Part shown: positions 2,086-9,382 of the stretch, piece after piece | Numbering within the stretch: the stretch's first letter is position 1 | Layout: every line of letters begins with the position of its first letter | Origin: Elusimicrobiota bacterium | Lineage (GTDB): Bacteria; Elusimicrobiota; Elusimicrobia; Elusimicrobiales; Elusimicrobiaceae | Assembly (NCBI GenBank): GCA_031262415.1 | Contig: JAISHT010000017.1 | Location: forward strand, 1-32,171 | Direction: 5' to 3' | Length of the DNA: 32,171 nt | The notes under the pieces: model-generated | The model's input: only the letters and a program-made list of their open reading frames with translations | Told to the model about the DNA's origin: nothing | The model's database searches: none | Position numbers and translations under genes: made by a program

Positions 2086-2120
2086 AGAAGCCTTAGTGTT
2101 ATTACCCTAAGGCTTCTTTT
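2086..2120 (+). terminator. Intrinsic terminator of the OsmC-like transcript
   Basis: An 11-bp perfect stem, AGAAGCCTTAG with CTAAGGCTTCT, encloses a 10-base loop and is followed by TTTT on the + strand. The right arm is also the last coding part and stop codon of the convergent Nudix gene, so one sequence serves both. No T-run follows the hairpin on the minus strand, so it acts mainly in the + direction. Confidence 0.8.
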
Positions 2121-2533
2121 AATAATTCTCTATAGTTAACAAATTGAGGCGTGGGGATTGCGTCTAGGCTATCAACCCAAAGCCACTGGGCGCATTTTTC
2201 TGGCTCCATTATTTTTGGTGTTTCTGCTTTGGACTCTGCTTTCATAAAAATGATTATTCTATGTGAATCTTCTTTTTGATGCTTGCCTTTAAAAAACAAA
2301 ACATTTGCTATTTTAATTATGCTGGTTTTTTGGATTTTAAGGCCTGTTTCTTCCAACACTTCACGGTATGCGCAGGCTTGAGGCGTTTCCATAAATTCCA
2401 ACTTTCCCCCGGGCAAAGCCCAAGTGCCGCCACCGTGAGGACCTAGCCGCTGGCCAACTAAGAACTGCCCTTTTTTATTAAAAACGAAAACACCGCACCC
2501 CACCCCAATTGTATTATCCGTTTTTTGTTCCAT
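2102..2533 (-). CDS. Nudix hydrolase (MutT-like)
   Basis: The protein has 143 residues and a complete Nudix box: a Gly-Gly turn (WALPGGKLEF), the spacing Glu, and REVLEETGL, matching GX5EX7REUXEEXGU. The Glu residues bind Mg2+ and hydrolyse a nucleoside diphosphate linked to another group. The N-terminal part (GVGCGVFVFNKKGQFLVGQR) and the length resemble small cytosolic nucleotide-cleaning Nudix enzymes of the NUDT15/MutT kind. The substrate cannot be read from the sequence. The gene lies 36 bases downstream of the HEPN gene on the same strand. TAAAAT sits five bases before the ATG, so it may have its own promoter. Its 3' end overlaps the terminator of the convergent OsmC-like gene. Confidence 0.92.
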   Translation of the reverse strand: MEQKTDNTIGVGCGVFVFNKKGQFLVGQRLGPHGGGTWALPGGKLEFMETPQACAYREVLEETGLKIQKTSIIKIANVLFFKGKHQKEDSHRIIIFMKAESKAETPKIMEPEKCAQWLWVDSLDAIPTPQFVNYRELLKEALG

Positions 2534-2569: not shown

Positions 2570-3187
2570 TTATTTAACACATTCATATATCGCTTTACCT
2601 AATTTTTTTATGAAATCAATCGCTATCTTGGTATCTCCTTCTATTATATTTTGTCGCCCCAAAGAAGCAGCTTGATAATCACTCTCATGAACAATCTGGT
2701 CTCTACGAGTTGATATATTTGATAGTTCGGTTTTGACTTGCCTTTCATCTCGTTTCATTTGTGCAGATATTTTTTGCCATTTCTGTGCTTCTTCCCAGAT
2801 ACAAGCTAAGCCCTCAGCAATTTTTTCAGGCTTTTGGAATGATTTAAAGCTATTAGCCTCAATGATAAGTTGTTGTAGCGACGATAGACGTTCTGATTCG
2901 CTTTTAGAACTATCAAAGTCCACTATAATATTGTGAAGATTTGTTGCCTTAAATGATTTTAAGGCAGGTGTTATTGGTCTTTTCTTCAAATAAACATTAG
3001 TAATACCTGCAAGTATCAAATCGTGCATAAACTTATCAAGAGCTGAAATCACTTGTACCCACTGAAATCTTAACAAATCAGAATAGTCAATTGCATTAAA
3101 ATTATTTTGTTTTAGATACTGGTATATAACATTTGCCTTTTCTGTTTCGGCAATCATTGCTACAAAAGTATTATATGACTTTTTCAT
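2570..3187 (-). CDS. Predicted HEPN-domain ribonuclease paired with a ParA-like ATPase
   Basis: This all-helical protein of 205 residues has no membrane segment. The key observation is RRDQIVH at residues 161-167, an R-X4-H motif in the style of RiboL-PSP/MAE-type HEPN families. An earlier helix, SALDKFMHDLI (about 48-58), fits the first HEPN core helix. HEPN proteins with an intact R-X4-6-H motif are metal-independent endoribonucleases in many toxin, abortive-infection and CRISPR-linked systems, so an RNA-cutting effector role is inferred. The ATG overlaps the ATPase stop codon by one base (TAATG), which implies translational coupling. Base composition is AT-rich compared with the flanks, which suggests acquisition with its partner. 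The HEPN assignment rests on the motif and helical pattern only. Confidence 0.72.
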   Translation of the reverse strand: MKKSYNTFVAMIAETEKANVIYQYLKQNNFNAIDYSDLLRFQWVQVISALDKFMHDLILAGITNVYLKKRPITPALKSFKATNLHNIIVDFDSSKSESERLSSLQQLIIEANSFKSFQKPEKIAEGLACIWEEAQKWQKISAQMKRDERQVKTELSNISTRRDQIVHESDYQAASLGRQNIIEGDTKIAIDFIKKLGKAIYECVK

Positions 3188-4200
3188 TATATTCTTGTTA
3201 ATAGAGGCGTTGCAATATCATTAAAATTTTTAACAAAAAGATCCTTATTTACTATATTTGTACTGTGCACTACACCCTGCCCTAAATCATTATTCGTTAG
3301 TGCTATTATAGGAACACCTTTTTCTGTGGCTGTTTGTTGTAATCCACCAAAATCCTTAATTTCAGTTAAGCAAAATTCACTTTGCATATTTTTAATCATT
3401 CCTTCTTTTTGTAACGCTGGGACCAAGTCTTCTTTTACTTCTTTTTTAATACTGGTTATCTTATTTCTGTAATAGGCTGCAGGCTTAGCGTTTCTTACGG
3501 CAAATCTAGATATAACTTCCCCAATGAAATACATTTTTTTATCTGGCAGAGGATAAGATGCCTCTTTGGTTAAATTTGACAATTCTGTAGCTTGTTTTTT
3601 CCATCTAGGTAGTATAATTTTAAGAGTTTTTAACGCCATAATAGAAAAAGGATCTGGATTTGTAGGCACTATAAAGGCATCAGAAGACATAAATAAAACT
3701 TGATTAATTGCACTTAAACTAGGATTTAAGTCAATTATTACGTAATCTATACTATATTGTTCAGAACATAATCTAATAAGTTCGGCAAAGGCACCAGGTA
3801 AATTTTGGAGCGTGGTTAAAGTTGCGCTAGTGGTAAGAGCTAAATTTAATTGTGGTTCGTAAGCGGATAAATCCATATGACCAGGAATTAAAAAGAGATT
3901 TTTATTTTGTGTGTGATTAGGACATTCTATAGCTTTGATAGGCTCTGGCTTAGCATCAAAAGCCTGTCTAACGCCATCTTTTATATTATGACTTTTTGTT
4001 TCATCTTTTTCATAATAATCATTAAAATTATCGCTTAATACAAGAGCTGTTAAATTGCATTGAGAATCTCCGTCCACTAGCAGTACCCTTTTTTTCTGAT
4101 TAGTAAGAGACCACGCCAAGTTATAAGCGATGGTTGTTTTAGCAACACCCCCCTTGTGGTTGAATATAGAAATTACTTTTGCTTCTTCTTTTGTTTTCAT
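3187..4200 (-). CDS. ParA/Soj-type P-loop ATPase of a HEPN-linked cassette
   Basis: The protein has 337 residues from the chosen ATG. It has the deviant Walker A of ParA/MinD ATPases (HKGGVAKTT, about residues 15-23, with the signature Lys after the first His), a Walker A' (LLVDGDSQCNLT, about 40-51) and a Walker B region (YVIIDLNPSL, about 153-162). The gap between A' and B is long for a chromosomal ParA. The C-terminal half (KMYFIGEVISRFAVR and following) resembles ParA-like proteins of accessory islands, not Soj. The ORF track starts at 4236, but AGGAG lies seven bases before the ATG at 4200, so I use that start. No ParB or parS is visible next to it. Its immediate partner is the predicted HEPN nuclease, so a sensor or regulator role in that module is more likely than plasmid or chromosome partition. 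Confidence 0.88.
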   Translation of the reverse strand: MKTKEEAKVISIFNHKGGVAKTTIAYNLAWSLTNQKKRVLLVDGDSQCNLTALVLSDNFNDYYEKDETKSHNIKDGVRQAFDAKPEPIKAIECPNHTQNKNLFLIPGHMDLSAYEPQLNLALTTSATLTTLQNLPGAFAELIRLCSEQYSIDYVIIDLNPSLSAINQVLFMSSDAFIVPTNPDPFSIMALKTLKIILPRWKKQATELSNLTKEASYPLPDKKMYFIGEVISRFAVRNAKPAAYYRNKITSIKKEVKEDLVPALQKEGMIKNMQSEFCLTEIKDFGGLQQTATEKGVPIIALTNNDLGQGVVHSTNIVNKDLFVKNFNDIATPLLTRI

Positions 4201-4207
4201 TGAATTG

Positions 4208-4246
4208 CTCCTATTTATTATCAGCACCAGAGCCATAGATTTTATA
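4208..4246 (-). promoter_or_regulatory. Candidate -10 box and ribosome binding site of the ParA-HEPN cassette
   Basis: In the short gap after the GGDEF gene, TATAAA (4241-4246, minus strand) is a plausible -10 box. AGGAG (4208-4212) is a good Shine-Dalgarno sequence for the ATG at 4200. I see no convincing -35 element. This would give the cassette its own transcript, separate from the long upstream operon. Confidence 0.4.
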
Positions 4247-4258
4247 TGGTTATACGAT

Positions 4259-5791
4259 CTACTTATCCGTTTTGCCGTTGCTAGCGTCCTGTTTATCTTT
4301 CTCTTCCTGTTTTATGGCGTCGCTGTAAGATGCCCAGTTGCCACGGCCTGTTTCTTTAACATAATACAAAGCTTTATCGGCGCAGTTAATTAAATCCTGC
4401 CCGTTAGTAGCGTCGTAGGGGAAGACGGATAAACCTTGGCTTATTGAAAGTTTTATATCAGCCCCGCGCGTAACCCTACTGGGCAGTTCAATCTCGCTCA
4501 CTTTTTTCATAAGGCGTTTTGCAATATGCTCCGCCTCTTCCCCCGTTGTGCGGGGCAGCATTATCAAAACTTCGTCGCCGCCGTAGCGGCAGGGGATATC
4601 CGTCTGCCTAAGGCTAGCGCGGATAACCTCGCTAACGGCTTTTAAAGCCTCGTCGCCGACGGCGTGTCCGTAAGTGTCGTTAATACCTTTAAAATGGTCA
4701 ATATCTAAAAGTATTAAAGAAAAAGTTAAATTAAAACGCTCGGAGCGGTAAATTTCCTGCTCAAGATGTTCGTTAAAAAACCGCCTAAGCGCAAGTTTTG
4801 TAAGGTCGTCAAAATTGGATAATTCCTGCACTCTCTCAAACAGGCGGGCATTATCAATAGCCAAAGCTATTTGCGACGAAAACTGCCTAAGCGACAAAAC
4901 ATCTTCGTCGGATATTTGCATACGGGAAAGCATATTATCAAACACAAGCCAGCCCAAATGCTTGTTTTGCACTATCATAGGCAGGCTTAAAATAATGTCG
5001 GATTTTATTAGCGGCGTGCATGCTTGTTTGGAGCAAGCCTCGCTAACGCCGGCAATAGCGGCTTCTTTTATATCAATTTCTTTTATTTCGCCGGATAAAT
5101 CAGATGTATAAGCCTCTTTAAACTCCCCGCTTTTAGGGTCGTTTAAAAATAGGCTTGTTCTATCAAATTGGAAAGTTTTTTGTATGCTTTTTAAAATATC
5201 TGCAATACCGTCGCTAAGGCGAAGTGATGTTGCAAAGACTGCGGCAAGCTCGTTTAAAGCCAAAGCTCGGCGAAGTTGGGTAGTATTGTAGTGGTCAACT
5301 TCGGTTATATTTATTTTTACGGAAAGCTCCCGGCAAAGGCCGGATAAAATTTCCCTATCGCTTTGCGAAAAGGGCTTATTTTTTTTGAGCCTTTCAATGC
5401 GAATTACGCCGTATTGATTGCCGGCTGGCGCGCCGCTTTGTATTGTTTTTAAGCTATCTAGCGGAGTGCGCCATTTAAGCAAATTATATACGGCAGGATA
5501 GTCTAACGTGGGCGAGTCCCCTATACCGTCTTCCATAAATTTAATAATTTCTGGGGAGTTTTTATCAACAAAAACATCTTCCTGCATATAATAGGATTTA
5601 TTGCCAATGCACATCATTTTAAGCGAGATTATGGATTGCTCCCCAATCCAATCAAAAAAGAAAATCCTATCAGCGTTTAGATATTCGGCCATAAGCGGCA
5701 ATGCCTTTTTGAGCAAAGAGCCTATGCTTTCATATCTATCTGAAAGGCTTTGGTAAAAATCATAAAAAAGCGATGTGCGTTTATCTATCAT
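4259..5791 (-). CDS. GAF-GGDEF diguanylate cyclase
   Basis: The protein has 510 residues and no transmembrane segment. Two GAF-like sensory regions (roughly residues 5-165 and 175-320) precede a GGDEF domain (about 330-490). The domain contains FDDLTKLALRRFF, ILLDIDHFKGINDTYGH and the active-site loop RYGGDEV at about residue 400, so the A-site is GGDEV, an accepted active variant. RQTD just upstream matches the RxxD inhibitory I-site. It should make cyclic di-GMP from two GTP in the cytoplasm, with product inhibition. It begins two bases after the stop of the solute-binding-like gene (TAA TT ATG), so the two are almost certainly co-translated. A hydrophilic Lys/Asp-rich tail follows the domain. 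The ligand of the GAF domains is unknown. Confidence 0.93.
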   Translation of the reverse strand: MIDKRTSLFYDFYQSLSDRYESIGSLLKKALPLMAEYLNADRIFFFDWIGEQSIISLKMMCIGNKSYYMQEDVFVDKNSPEIIKFMEDGIGDSPTLDYPAVYNLLKWRTPLDSLKTIQSGAPAGNQYGVIRIERLKKNKPFSQSDREILSGLCRELSVKINITEVDHYNTTQLRRALALNELAAVFATSLRLSDGIADILKSIQKTFQFDRTSLFLNDPKSGEFKEAYTSDLSGEIKEIDIKEAAIAGVSEACSKQACTPLIKSDIILSLPMIVQNKHLGWLVFDNMLSRMQISDEDVLSLRQFSSQIALAIDNARLFERVQELSNFDDLTKLALRRFFNEHLEQEIYRSERFNLTFSLILLDIDHFKGINDTYGHAVGDEALKAVSEVIRASLRQTDIPCRYGGDEVLIMLPRTTGEEAEHIAKRLMKKVSEIELPSRVTRGADIKLSISQGLSVFPYDATNGQDLINCADKALYYVKETGRGNWASYSDAIKQEEKDKQDASNGKTDK

Positions 5792-5793
5792 AA

Positions 5794-7005
5794 TTAATCT
5801 ATATAAAAGCGTAAAATATTATCAATTTCTTTTGCGGCATTTTGCAACTCGTCCTTTAGAATTTTTCTATCGTATTTATGCATTAAAATAGAGCTTGCTA
5901 TAACCGACATTATATTTGCCAACATCTCCATAATAGTGCCTGTTATTACAAAATTAGGCAGTAAGCTGGCAGAAGCTATAATGCCTGTATAATTTTGCAA
6001 ACGCTGGGGCGAGGCCATTAAAAAATTATCAAAACTGGATTCCATAGCGGGGAAGGCTTCCGTCTTGGCGGCATATTCAATTTGCGTATCGGGCTGGGTA
6101 AGCCATTTAAGTAATTTTAGGGCGTTTTCCCGCTGGGTCCCGCCTTTTACTATAGCTAAATTAACGCCGCCCATATAGTTTGCATAATTATCGCCAGTGC
6201 GAGGCACGGGTAAAGTTTTAAATTTTATGCTTTTTTGATTGCCCTCAAACATTGTAAGGCCTTGGCGGCGGGTCATCATAAAAGTGGATTTATTTGAGGA
6301 AATTAGCCCTAGCGAGCTTCTTTCCTTTAAAATCGGCATATAGCCCTTTAGCGCAAGCTCTATAAAATCGGCCATACCTTGCTCAAACTCAGGCTTATCA
6401 AGGCCGCAGGTTTTGCCGTCGGGGCTTAAAATATATGCGCCGCGGCTCCAAAGGCAAGGCAAAACAGAGCGGTGCGAAAGCGAACCACGCCAATCATTAT
6501 TTTGCATGGGGTAGTAGCCTTCTTCGCTACCGCTAAAATGTTCTTTTAGTAGACGGCAGGCCTCAAGCAATCCGCCCCAAGTAGAGAGCATTGTTTCAGC
6601 GTCGTCGGTTATAAGTTTAAGATGGTCTTCCCTAAAATGCAAGGCGCTTATATCCATCCACCACGGGAAAGAGTAAATATCTGCGGTATCTTTTTTGTAG
6701 CTTGACGGTTTTAGCAAATCAAGGCAGTTGTCAACACGCAGGGTTTTATCAAGCTCGGTTAAATTTTCAAGGACATCGGCTTTAATTAAAAGCTCCGTCC
6801 AATAATTTGGCATGGCAATTAAATCTGGGCAGGAATCATGGCCGACTTTGTGCTTTAGAGTGAAAATGCGGGTCCACAAATTGCGTCTATTAATGATTTT
6901 TATTTGGACATCTATATCTGGATTTTCCGCGCGAAAAGGAGCTAGCAGGTTATCCATAATATCCTGTGTATGGGTTGCATTATCGGGCATCATCCAAAGT
7001 ATCAT
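5794..7005 (-). CDS. Extracellular solute-binding protein family 1-like, without signal peptide
   Basis: This 403-residue protein has the pattern of an ABC-transporter sugar-binding protein: a beta strand at the very start (ILWMMP), LLAPFRAENPDIDVQI, PDLIAMPNYW, SFPWWMDISALHFRED, and a C-terminal hinge region with NALKLLKWLT. Normal members have an N-terminal signal peptide or lipobox before the first strand. Here the ATG overlaps the tsaD stop codon (ATGA) and the frame is closed by TAG six codons upstream, so none can be encoded. No ABC permease or ATPase gene is in the window. The downstream partner is a GAF-GGDEF cyclase. I infer a cytoplasmic ligand sensor or adaptor for that cyclase, not a transporter part. 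The ligand is unknown. Confidence 0.82.
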   Translation of the reverse strand: MILWMMPDNATHTQDIMDNLLAPFRAENPDIDVQIKIINRRNLWTRIFTLKHKVGHDSCPDLIAMPNYWTELLIKADVLENLTELDKTLRVDNCLDLLKPSSYKKDTADIYSFPWWMDISALHFREDHLKLITDDAETMLSTWGGLLEACRLLKEHFSGSEEGYYPMQNNDWRGSLSHRSVLPCLWSRGAYILSPDGKTCGLDKPEFEQGMADFIELALKGYMPILKERSSLGLISSNKSTFMMTRRQGLTMFEGNQKSIKFKTLPVPRTGDNYANYMGGVNLAIVKGGTQRENALKLLKWLTQPDTQIEYAAKTEAFPAMESSFDNFLMASPQRLQNYTGIIASASLLPNFVITGTIMEMLANIMSVIASSILMHKYDRKILKDELQNAAKEIDNILRFYID

Positions 7006-8009
7006 TTTTTCTTCCAGTTCCTAAGCGTCATATTAGGGTTAATATTTATTTTACCCTTTGCTGCGCCATATTGCAATTTTTTGGAGGCGCAAAGCGCAAT
7101 CATTGCGGCATTATCCGATGATAAACGCCTGTCAACAAACCTTGCTTTTATACCTGCTTTTTTAGCCTCTTCTATCATTGTGCTTTTTAAAAGCTCATTT
7201 GCCGCTACCCCGCCGCCAACCGCAATATACTTAACTTTATATTTTTTTGCGGCTTCCACGGTTTTTTTTACTAAAGTTTCAACCACCGCCGTCTGAAAAG
7301 ATGCGCAAACATTAGCTATATTTATGTCTTTGTGGTCCCTTAAATAATAACTTACCGCAGTTTTTAGCCCGCTAAAAGAAAATTCAAAAGTGCCGGGCAT
7401 AAACGGCCTTGGGAATTTTATGGCCTTACTATCCCCTTTTAAAGCCTGAGCGGAAACCTGCGGCCCGCCCGGGTATCCGAGGCCGAGCAATTTAGCCACT
7501 TTATCAAAGGCCTCGCCTGCGGCGTCGTCACGGGTTTTGCCAAGCAGTTTATATTGGCCGTATCCCTTAACCAGCCAAAGCTCGGTATGCCCTCCTGATA
7601 CTATAAGGGAAATTAGAGGAAATTCAAGGGGGTCAAGTTTTGGCGTTGAAGTAAGCTCGCACGCATAAAGGTGGCCCTCCAAGTGATTTACGCCGATAAT
7701 TGGCGCGCCGTAAAACTCTGCCAGAGTTTCGGCGGCAACACGGCCAACTAGTAAGCCGCCGGGCAGCCCGGGGCCGTTAGCAAAGGCAATATAATCTGGC
7801 TTTAGCGGGCCTAGCGCCTCTTTAACTACGCCTGCAATTTTAGCGGCGTGAGCGCGGCTTGCAAGCTCCGGCACTACGCCGGCATATTTTTTGTGTATAT
7901 CAATTTGAGTGTAGACAACATTTTTTACAACCTCGCTGCCGTTTTTTAATACGGCGGCGGAGGTTTCGTCGCAAGTCGTCTCCAAAGCTAGGATTAAACT
8001 ATCTTTCAC
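7002..8009 (-). CDS. tsaD: tRNA N6-adenosine threonylcarbamoyltransferase TsaD
   Basis: The protein has 335 residues, the standard family length. It contains LALETTCDETSAAVL at the N-terminus, the metal-binding HLEGH motif (NHLEGHLYA), the ASKHA-fold phosphate loops (VSGGHTELW, GGGVAANELL) and SSDNAAMIAL near the end. With TsaB and TsaE, TsaD transfers the threonylcarbamoyl group from TC-AMP to A37 of ANN-decoding tRNAs in the cytoplasm. TsaB, TsaC and TsaE are not in this window. It starts two bases after the ctpA stop codon and its own stop overlaps the next start codon by four bases, so it lies inside the long minus-strand operon. Confidence 0.97.
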   Translation of the reverse strand: MKDSLILALETTCDETSAAVLKNGSEVVKNVVYTQIDIHKKYAGVVPELASRAHAAKIAGVVKEALGPLKPDYIAFANGPGLPGGLLVGRVAAETLAEFYGAPIIGVNHLEGHLYACELTSTPKLDPLEFPLISLIVSGGHTELWLVKGYGQYKLLGKTRDDAAGEAFDKVAKLLGLGYPGGPQVSAQALKGDSKAIKFPRPFMPGTFEFSFSGLKTAVSYYLRDHKDINIANVCASFQTAVVETLVKKTVEAAKKYKVKYIAVGGGVAANELLKSTMIEEAKKAGIKARFVDRRLSSDNAAMIALCASKKLQYGAAKGKININPNMTLRNWKKK

Positions 8010-8011
8010 TC

Positions 8012-9382
8012 TTATTTGCCGCCTTTGGCCTTATTTGTTTTTGTAGCTTTTGTATCAGTTGTATTATTTGCCGTTTGGGCCGCCGCTTGGGTTGCCGCTT
8101 GGGGTTTTAAATTAGCTAAAACATTCCTTGCTTTTAAAACTTCTAAGGCTCTATCAAGCTGTATGTCCTGCGTTTTTTCTTTTGATTCAGGCTCGGCTGT
8201 TTTTTTGGACGGCGAGTAGACTAGATTAGTTGTATTATAAGTAATGCGTCTAGCGGTGGACAAATCAAAAGGTATAACCATATCTGGCACAATACCGCCA
8301 TGATTAGTTTTTTCCTTAAAATTTCTATGTATCATTCTACCTAGCGGCGTATAGTATTTGGCTACTGTAATACGCAGGCCATTATCGCCGGGCAACATAA
8401 TAACTTGCTGCACGCTGCCTTTGCCAAAAGTTCTATTGCCAATTAAAACGGCCCGTCCGTAATCTTGCAATGCGCCAGCCACAATTTCACTGCCGGAGGC
8501 GGAACCCTCGTTAACCAATAAAACTATCGGTATATCGGGATACTGCGCTTTTGCATTGCTTTTGTATTCTTTAAAGTATTCTTCCTTGCGGCCTTTTGTA
8601 TAAACTATAAGTTTATTTTCGCCAATAAAAAGCTTTACCATATCTACGGAAGCGTCCAGCAAACCGCCGGGGTTAAAGCGCAAATCAAGCACCAAAGCCT
8701 TCATACCTTTCTTAGTAAGGTCTTGCATTGCTTTGTTGAAAGTTTCCATTGTGTGTCCCGAGAAATCGGCCACAAAAATATAGCCAATTTCTTTATCCAA
8801 CATTTTGGAAAAAACTACTTCTGGTATAATTCTTGATCTTTTAAGATTAAAGGTTTTTTTAATTGTTTTGCCTGTTTTGGGGTCTTTACGCTCAACGGTA
8901 AATTTAACTTTTGAGCCAACTTGCCCCCTTAATGCGGCAACAGCCTTTTCCGTGCCGATATCGGCAACTTTTTTGCCGTCAACATCTAAAATAATATCGC
9001 CCGGCTCAACGCCCGCTTTATAAGACGGGGAATTTAACATTGGGGAAACAACAGACAAAACGCCTTCCCTTGAAGTTGTAAGACGCAGGCCAATACCGCC
9101 AAATTCGCCTTTTGTTTCCTCCTGCATACGCTTCATAGAATCCCCGCTGATATATTCCGAAAATTCGTCAAGACTACCAACCATACCCTCCAATGCGCCG
9201 TCAACAAGCTGCTTAGCGGTAGTTTCCTCAACATAGCTATCTTGTATTTTATCCATAACATCAACCATAACTTTTAGCTGCTCAAGCCCGCTATCAACCC
9301 CAGAATAAGCAAACGGAAACAAACTGCCTATAAAAAAAGCCGCCACCATTAAAATTACATATACATTTACTTTCTTTTTCAT
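8012..9382 (-). CDS. ctpA: C-terminal processing peptidase, S41 family (CtpA-like)
   Basis: The protein has 456 residues. A single N-terminal hydrophobic segment (about residues 5-25) should act as a signal anchor and place the enzyme in the periplasm. It is followed by an N-terminal helical part, a PDZ domain (about 95-175, with GGIGLRL and AGVEPGDIILDVDG) and the S41 catalytic core. The catalytic Ser lies in GSASGSEI and the Lys in TFGKGSVQ, the Ser-Lys dyad of the family. CtpA/Prc proteases trim or degrade envelope proteins, often peptidoglycan hydrolases. The EnvC-like gene just upstream (12-base gap) makes that link plausible here. The tail is an Ala/Gln/Thr/Lys-rich low-complexity stretch. 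An AAAGGA sequence precedes the ATG at suitable spacing. Confidence 0.95.
   Translation of the reverse strand: MKKKVNVYVILMVAAFFIGSLFPFAYSGVDSGLEQLKVMVDVMDKIQDSYVEETTAKQLVDGALEGMVGSLDEFSEYISGDSMKRMQEETKGEFGGIGLRLTTSREGVLSVVSPMLNSPSYKAGVEPGDIILDVDGKKVADIGTEKAVAALRGQVGSKVKFTVERKDPKTGKTIKKTFNLKRSRIIPEVVFSKMLDKEIGYIFVADFSGHTMETFNKAMQDLTKKGMKALVLDLRFNPGGLLDASVDMVKLFIGENKLIVYTKGRKEEYFKEYKSNAKAQYPDIPIVLLVNEGSASGSEIVAGALQDYGRAVLIGNRTFGKGSVQQVIMLPGDNGLRITVAKYYTPLGRMIHRNFKEKTNHGGIVPDMVIPFDLSTARRITYNTTNLVYSPSKKTAEPESKEKTQDIQLDRALEVLKARNVLANLKPQAATQAAAQTANNTTDTKATKTNKAKGGK

Follow-up and report, generated by a model that had tools for sequence, protein, structure and literature searches.

What a ParA-family ATPase does when the gene directly behind its own encodes a predicted HEPN ribonuclease is the question raised by a two-gene pair at positions 2570-4200 on the minus strand of the window, that is, of the whole 32,171-nucleotide stretch of Elusimicrobiota DNA analyzed here, in which the ATPase gene comes first and the HEPN gene second. 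The answer favored here, by a modest balance of probability, is that the pair represents a horizontally acquired module of the toxin-antitoxin or abortive-infection type, in which the HEPN ribonuclease would be restrained by the ATPase. Both open reading frames of an earlier sequence-only reading, which had described a ParA-type ATPase and a 205-residue protein joined by a one-base TAATG overlap, are present (Table 1). The ATPase frame as listed spans 3187-4236 and opens 12 codons upstream of the ATG at 4200 (349 versus 337 residues); this ATG, with AGGAG ahead of it, is the likelier start and agrees with the end coordinate of 4200 in the sequence-only reading. The TAATG overlap suggests translational coupling of the two genes, and overlapping or abutting genes are also found in most homologous pairs. 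On the upstream side, the GAF-GGDEF gene closes a gene run conserved in the genus (TsaD-family, solute-binding and GGDEF genes). The NUDIX gene on the other side was considered as a third part of the module and was set aside on its normal GC content as probably not belonging to it.

Table 1. Features of the two-gene pair and its immediate flanks, in window coordinates
Feature	Positions	Strand	Basis
NUDIX hydrolase, other flank, probably outside the module	2102..2533	-	Pfam; GC 0.414
HEPN protein, 205 aa, PF18735 (HEPN_RiboL-PSP)	2570..3187	-	Pfam 1.4e-9, above cut-off; helical AlphaFold2 model, pLDDT 84.8
R162-D-Q-I-V-H167 codons, R-x4-H motif	2687..2704	-	R162 and H167 unchanged in all 49 full-length homologues
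TAATG stop/start overlap of the ATPase and HEPN genes	3185..3189	-	one base in common
ParA-family ATPase of 337 aa, with its start codon at 4200	3187..4200	-	AAA_31 5.5e-32; member of the HEPN-linked clade; model matches ParA/Soj structures
HKGGVAKTT codons, deviant Walker A with both lysines	4132..4158	-	read directly; KGGVxKTT kept in most homologues
AGGAG, probable ribosome-binding site for the start at 4200	4208..4212	-	read directly
GAF-GGDEF protein, native flank, outside the module	4259..5791	-	Pfam; congeners with the same gene order

Judged from base composition and gene order, the pair is foreign to the Elusimicrobiota genome and horizontally acquired. The third-position GC content of the ATPase and HEPN genes (0.22 and 0.25, respectively) lies about 4 SD below the mean of the 28 other open reading frames (0.387, SD 0.037) in this comparison within the window, and a profile search for the HEPN protein gave no match in 17 congeners, 42 other relatives and the remaining genomes of the 341 searched in the phylum. 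After the same GGDEF gene, three congeners (G008, G001 and G017) carry two different genes, for proteins of 122 and about 388 residues; beyond these come the genes for OsmC, orf174 and the helicase, which in the window lie past the pair. With matching flanks and different inserts, the site is shared among these genomes and its content differs. The NUDIX gene is absent from that spot in the same three congeners. A search for repeats at the ends of the module, which would be a sign of transposition, returned only weak AT-rich matches.

The assignment of the 205-residue protein to the HEPN superfamily is supported by its match to PF18735 (38.6 bits, cut-off 28.4) and by an intact R-x4-H motif, predicted to be catalytic, which bears out the earlier recognition of RRDQIVH as a true motif of this kind. 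Beyond the motif Arg and His, for which conservation had been proposed as a check, the residues I165, D170 and W137 are also invariant across the 49 full-length homologues, and R40, D51 and H55 are nearly so. The residue following the motif Arg is Asp in the window protein and Asn in 47 of the 49 copies (Asp or Asn in 48 of them). Searches of NCBIfam profiles returned nothing meaningful for this protein, and PF18737 gave no match to it at E<=1 in Pfam, a family that is matched weakly by a few of its relatives. Structural modeling, suggested in the sequence-only reading as a further check, was borne out in part: the AlphaFold2 model, built from six sequences, is confidently helical, with long helices at residues 2-27, 36-66, 148-166 and 183-204 and R162 near the end of the third, but a Foldseek search with it yielded no PDB match at E<=0.001. 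The weak matches repeatedly include HEPN-MNT toxins (e.g., 7bxo; TMt 0.55), along with one viral fold annotated as a MAE-28990/MAE-18760-like HEPN, and no solved structure was found by sequence search at E<=1. Because the fold search gave no significant match, the assignment owes more to the motif and the Pfam match. Most of the cyanobacterial copies (L042-L062 and L067) are longer, at about 245-261 residues, and carry an insert relative to the 205-residue form.

The ATPase matches AAA_31 and, less strongly, CbiA (9.3e-14) in Pfam, and its NCBIfam matches are exclusively of the ParA type, all falling below cut-off. Among solved structures, the ATPase comes closest to DIP2308 (3pg5) and ParA/Soj proteins, both by sequence (9.1e-23) and with the structural model (1.1e-11), a model of moderate quality (pLDDT 69.9) in which the C-terminus is poorly resolved. 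Three homologues bear altered P-loops (HEAGLGKT in L040, KGDVSKT in L051 and KGGVGST in L056), each adjoining a full-length HEPN gene, and any restraint of the HEPN protein may thus not need ATP turnover.

The pairing of the two genes is strongly supported by its recurrence in sequenced genomes. A HEPN gene lies directly behind an ATPase gene of the same clade in about 50 distinct loci from several bacterial phyla, and every locus bearing a HEPN gene, except for one with only a HEPN fragment (L066), has the same kind of ATPase gene just upstream in the same order, overlapping or abutting, in keeping with the co-occurrence expected by the sequence-only reading. Two of these loci (L006 and L078), at which the pairing is less apparent, are paired as well, their HEPN frames simply opening at an upstream start. 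The carriers include cyanobacterial chromosomes, Pseudanabaena (ATPase at 6983-8008 and HEPN at 8001-8609 of locus L001), the filamentous Pseudomonas inovirus Pf1 and its relative WX-TY, plasmids of Burkholderia glumae, some of the carrier Burkholderia plasmids being conjugative, B. arboris, and other viral contigs, including a prophage apparently of Bacillota, its host being deduced from its genes. A match to the HEPN profile at E<=1e-6 occurs in 29 of 386 sampled cyanobacterial genomes. The window proteins share 46-52% (ATPase) and about 31-39% (HEPN) identity with these relatives. Across ten cyanobacterial regions of 15 kb, the pair is the sole content common to all, and it thus behaves as a self-contained cassette.

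The same association is seen from the side of the ATPase. Relatives at 80 loci were gathered from viral contigs without regard to HEPN. In a 94-row tree, which was quickly built and has some long branches, the 50 HEPN-linked ATPases required only 2 label changes, compared to a mean of 31.3 for shuffled labels, and none of 500 shuffles was as low. The only unpaired ATPase inside the HEPN-linked clade (L089) is truncated.

The direction in which the two proteins depend on one another is suggested by naturally broken copies. Five loci combine an intact ATPase gene with a broken HEPN gene. In Pf1 (L004:9741-10268; AY324828), the HEPN frame is shifted after an A-run and before the last helix, and in the plasmid of B. 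glumae 257sh-1 (L202:3535-5550), an IS21-family insertion severs the HEPN gene ahead of the R-x4-H motif, leaving intact an ATPase that another B. glumae plasmid carries in identical form. The three cyanobacterial copies (L052, L063 and L064) are broken by one frameshift, one truncation and one in-frame stop. An intact HEPN gene without its ATPase gene was found at no locus among those collected. The chance of all five breaks falling in HEPN, weighted by gene length, is about 0.01, for a sample of five in which errors in draft assemblies can look like frameshifts. This asymmetry of five to none fits a toxin that is dispensable and a partner that must stay, and in this way it supports the view of the HEPN protein as a toxin restrained by the ATPase. 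The HEPN gene of Pf1 is unannotated in its record, where it lies behind Orf317, a gene annotated as Soj-like from a late start that leaves out the P-loop.

The preferred reading may then be set out as a mechanism. The HEPN protein would be a metal-independent endoribonuclease with R162 and H167 as its predicted catalytic residues, and the co-translated ATPase would bind to it directly, such that the nucleotide-bound, and possibly DNA-bound, state of the ATPase keeps the ribonuclease inactive. Phage entry or loss of the element, for example, could act as the trigger that frees the ribonuclease, and the benefit would presumably be either protection or retention of the element. The ATPase gene lies 5' of the HEPN gene, as antitoxin genes often do relative to their toxins (PMC3710099). 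The phenotypes published for prophage ATPases of the ParA type, GiPD474 (PMC12724215) and STM14_3218-3220 (PMC9879122), described below, also speak for this reading by way of parallel. Several points count against the reading of the HEPN protein as a toxin, namely the altered P-loops, the small size of the asymmetry, the lack of clear enrichment in defense islands described below, the Foldseek result for the HEPN model and the weak modeling of the ATPase C-terminus; control by the ATPase may also run in the activating direction.

A defense role for the pair would be plausible; superinfection exclusion or addiction would suit its occurrence on phages, prophages and plasmids equally. The profiles of PADLOC-DB 2.0.0 gave nothing beyond weak generic matches, the best for the HEPN protein being 0.029, and the match of the ATPase to PDC-M28B (5.8e-7) covers only 45 residues of the P-loop region. 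A named defense system was accordingly set aside, neither protein having a PADLOC or NCBIfam match that supports one. The sequence-only reading had proposed enrichment beside known defense genes as a check; in a small sample of 89 neighbor proteins at 10 cyanobacterial loci and 105 control proteins, PADLOC matches were few in both sets, with no clear excess near the module.

Relatives of the ATPase are also found alone. Sister ATPases (L100-L132) occur in prophages with no HEPN gene downstream, often adjoining CI-like repressors, and a stand-alone relative is located between c2 and gp24 in the P22-like Salmonella phage ST160 (L200:2540-3613). These stand-alone relatives are annotated as ParA-like partition proteins. 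In another viral contig (L142:831-2647), the gene of a distant ParA-like ATPase lies ahead of, and overlaps, that of a RelA_SpoT-domain protein (match to PF04607 at 7e-13), which hints at another type of effector beside such ATPases.

A broader proposal, put forward tentatively, is that a clade of ParA-type ATPases found on phages, plasmids and islands would act as a common switch in abortive or superinfection immunity, either alone or with exchangeable effectors, these being predicted HEPN ribonucleases in the clade described here and, in one distant relative, the RelA/SpoT-domain protein. The main rival to the preferred reading, and less likely than it, casts the ATPase as a sensor through which phage infection would switch on the HEPN protein; the HEPN protein alone would be idle, so that the pair would function purely in defense or superinfection exclusion and not as a toxin-antitoxin system. 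It draws on the placement of the stand-alone sister ATPases in the immunity regions of P22-like phages, beside CI repressors, where superinfection functions are usual, and on two studies of Gifsy prophages. The ParA-type ATPase GiPD474 of a Gifsy prophage confers phage resistance (PMC12724215), and an RNA-damage signal is abolished by insertions in, or deletion of, STM14_3218-3220, the deletion abolishing RtcR activation and raising the titers of Gifsy phages, with the HEPN-domain gene STM14_3211 being dispensable for the signal (PMC9879122). The five loci with a broken HEPN gene and an intact ATPase gene would nonetheless be unexpected if the HEPN protein were the sole output, and no profile of a known system matched the pair, nor were the sampled neighbors clearly enriched in defense genes.

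That the pair only secures retention of its carrier phage, plasmid or island, with no role in defense, appears improbable. Carriage on conjugative Burkholderia plasmids, inoviruses and prophages would suit such an addiction or stabilization function, as would the mobility of the pair as a lone unit among varied chromosomal sites, but many of the cyanobacterial copies are chromosomal and outside any recognized element, and retention alone, without benefit to the host, seems insufficient to account for them. Least credible of all is the notion of a partition or positioning ATPase with an incidental HEPN neighbor, which has the ParA-family fold in its favor. Against it, no ParB gene was identified adjoining the ATPase, and a search of the window for parS-like sites that tolerated up to 3 mismatches gave none, in line with the absence of ParB and parS nearby noted in the sequence-only reading; the canonical ParA-ParB pair of the same genome lies on contig C95, away from the module, and the ATPase is tightly linked to HEPN across phyla. 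A partition locus was ruled out on these grounds. The genome also holds a second, weaker ParB-like match (4.3e-7) on contig C112 (293-499), away from the ParA-ParB pair of C95.

Comparison with known systems places the module, taken again as a putative HEPN toxin restrained by its ATPase, beside several known arrangements. It shares with the ParABS systems (Soj/ParA) the ATPase fold and the KGGVxKTT motif, but no ParB gene was identified beside it and no parS in the window, and its ATPase falls in a clade of its own, with a long and distinct C-terminal region and a HEPN partner. GiPD474 and STM14_3218-3220 appear similar in offering a ParA-type ATPase without ParB, theirs being situated in a prophage immunity region; no PF18735 HEPN partner is described there, however, and the parallel drawn with the clade of the window ATPase is a functional one. 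The HEPN-MNT systems (HepT-MntA, type VII) are likewise two-gene units that join a HEPN ribonuclease, predicted as such in the present case, to a regulator encoded by the 5' gene, although the partner here is an AAA_31/ParA ATPase instead of an MNT nucleotidyltransferase and the HEPN protein belongs to another family.

The nearest precedent was reported by Anantharaman et al. 2013 (PMC3710099) as a "less common gene dyad" that couples a ParA/Soj-like ATPase to a HEPN of the MAE_18760 family, and the earlier supposition that the pair is undescribed does not hold. In that proposal, the ATPase occupies the antitoxin position and the HEPN protein is an RNase toxin, inhibited through a nucleotide-dependent conformational change or phosphorylation (PMC3710099). 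Both arrangements present an intact R-x4-6-H HEPN directly behind a ParA/Soj-like ATPase gene, but the window HEPN belongs to PF18735 and that of 2013 to the MAE_18760 family, as compared by description, and the RiboL-PSP family is tabulated in the 2013 work in fusion with L-PSP or in an operon with ParB, not ParA (PMC3710099). No such ATPase lies within the fetched flanks of the 30 best cyanobacterial loci of PF18737 (MAE_28990/MAE_18760-like), and this family was rejected as the parent. The pair thus appears to be a PF18735 variant of the kind of dyad predicted in 2013, with an apparently different HEPN family. In the open-access literature searched, no experimental follow-up of the 2013 prediction of an ATPase antitoxin and a HEPN toxin, and no later named ParA-HEPN system, was found. 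The module is now sharply defined by one ATPase clade, one HEPN branch, a set of invariant residues and natural broken copies, and if the favored reading is true, restraint by a ParA-family ATPase would be a new mode of HEPN control beside nucleotidyl transfer by MNT and the sensing of cyclic oligoadenylates.
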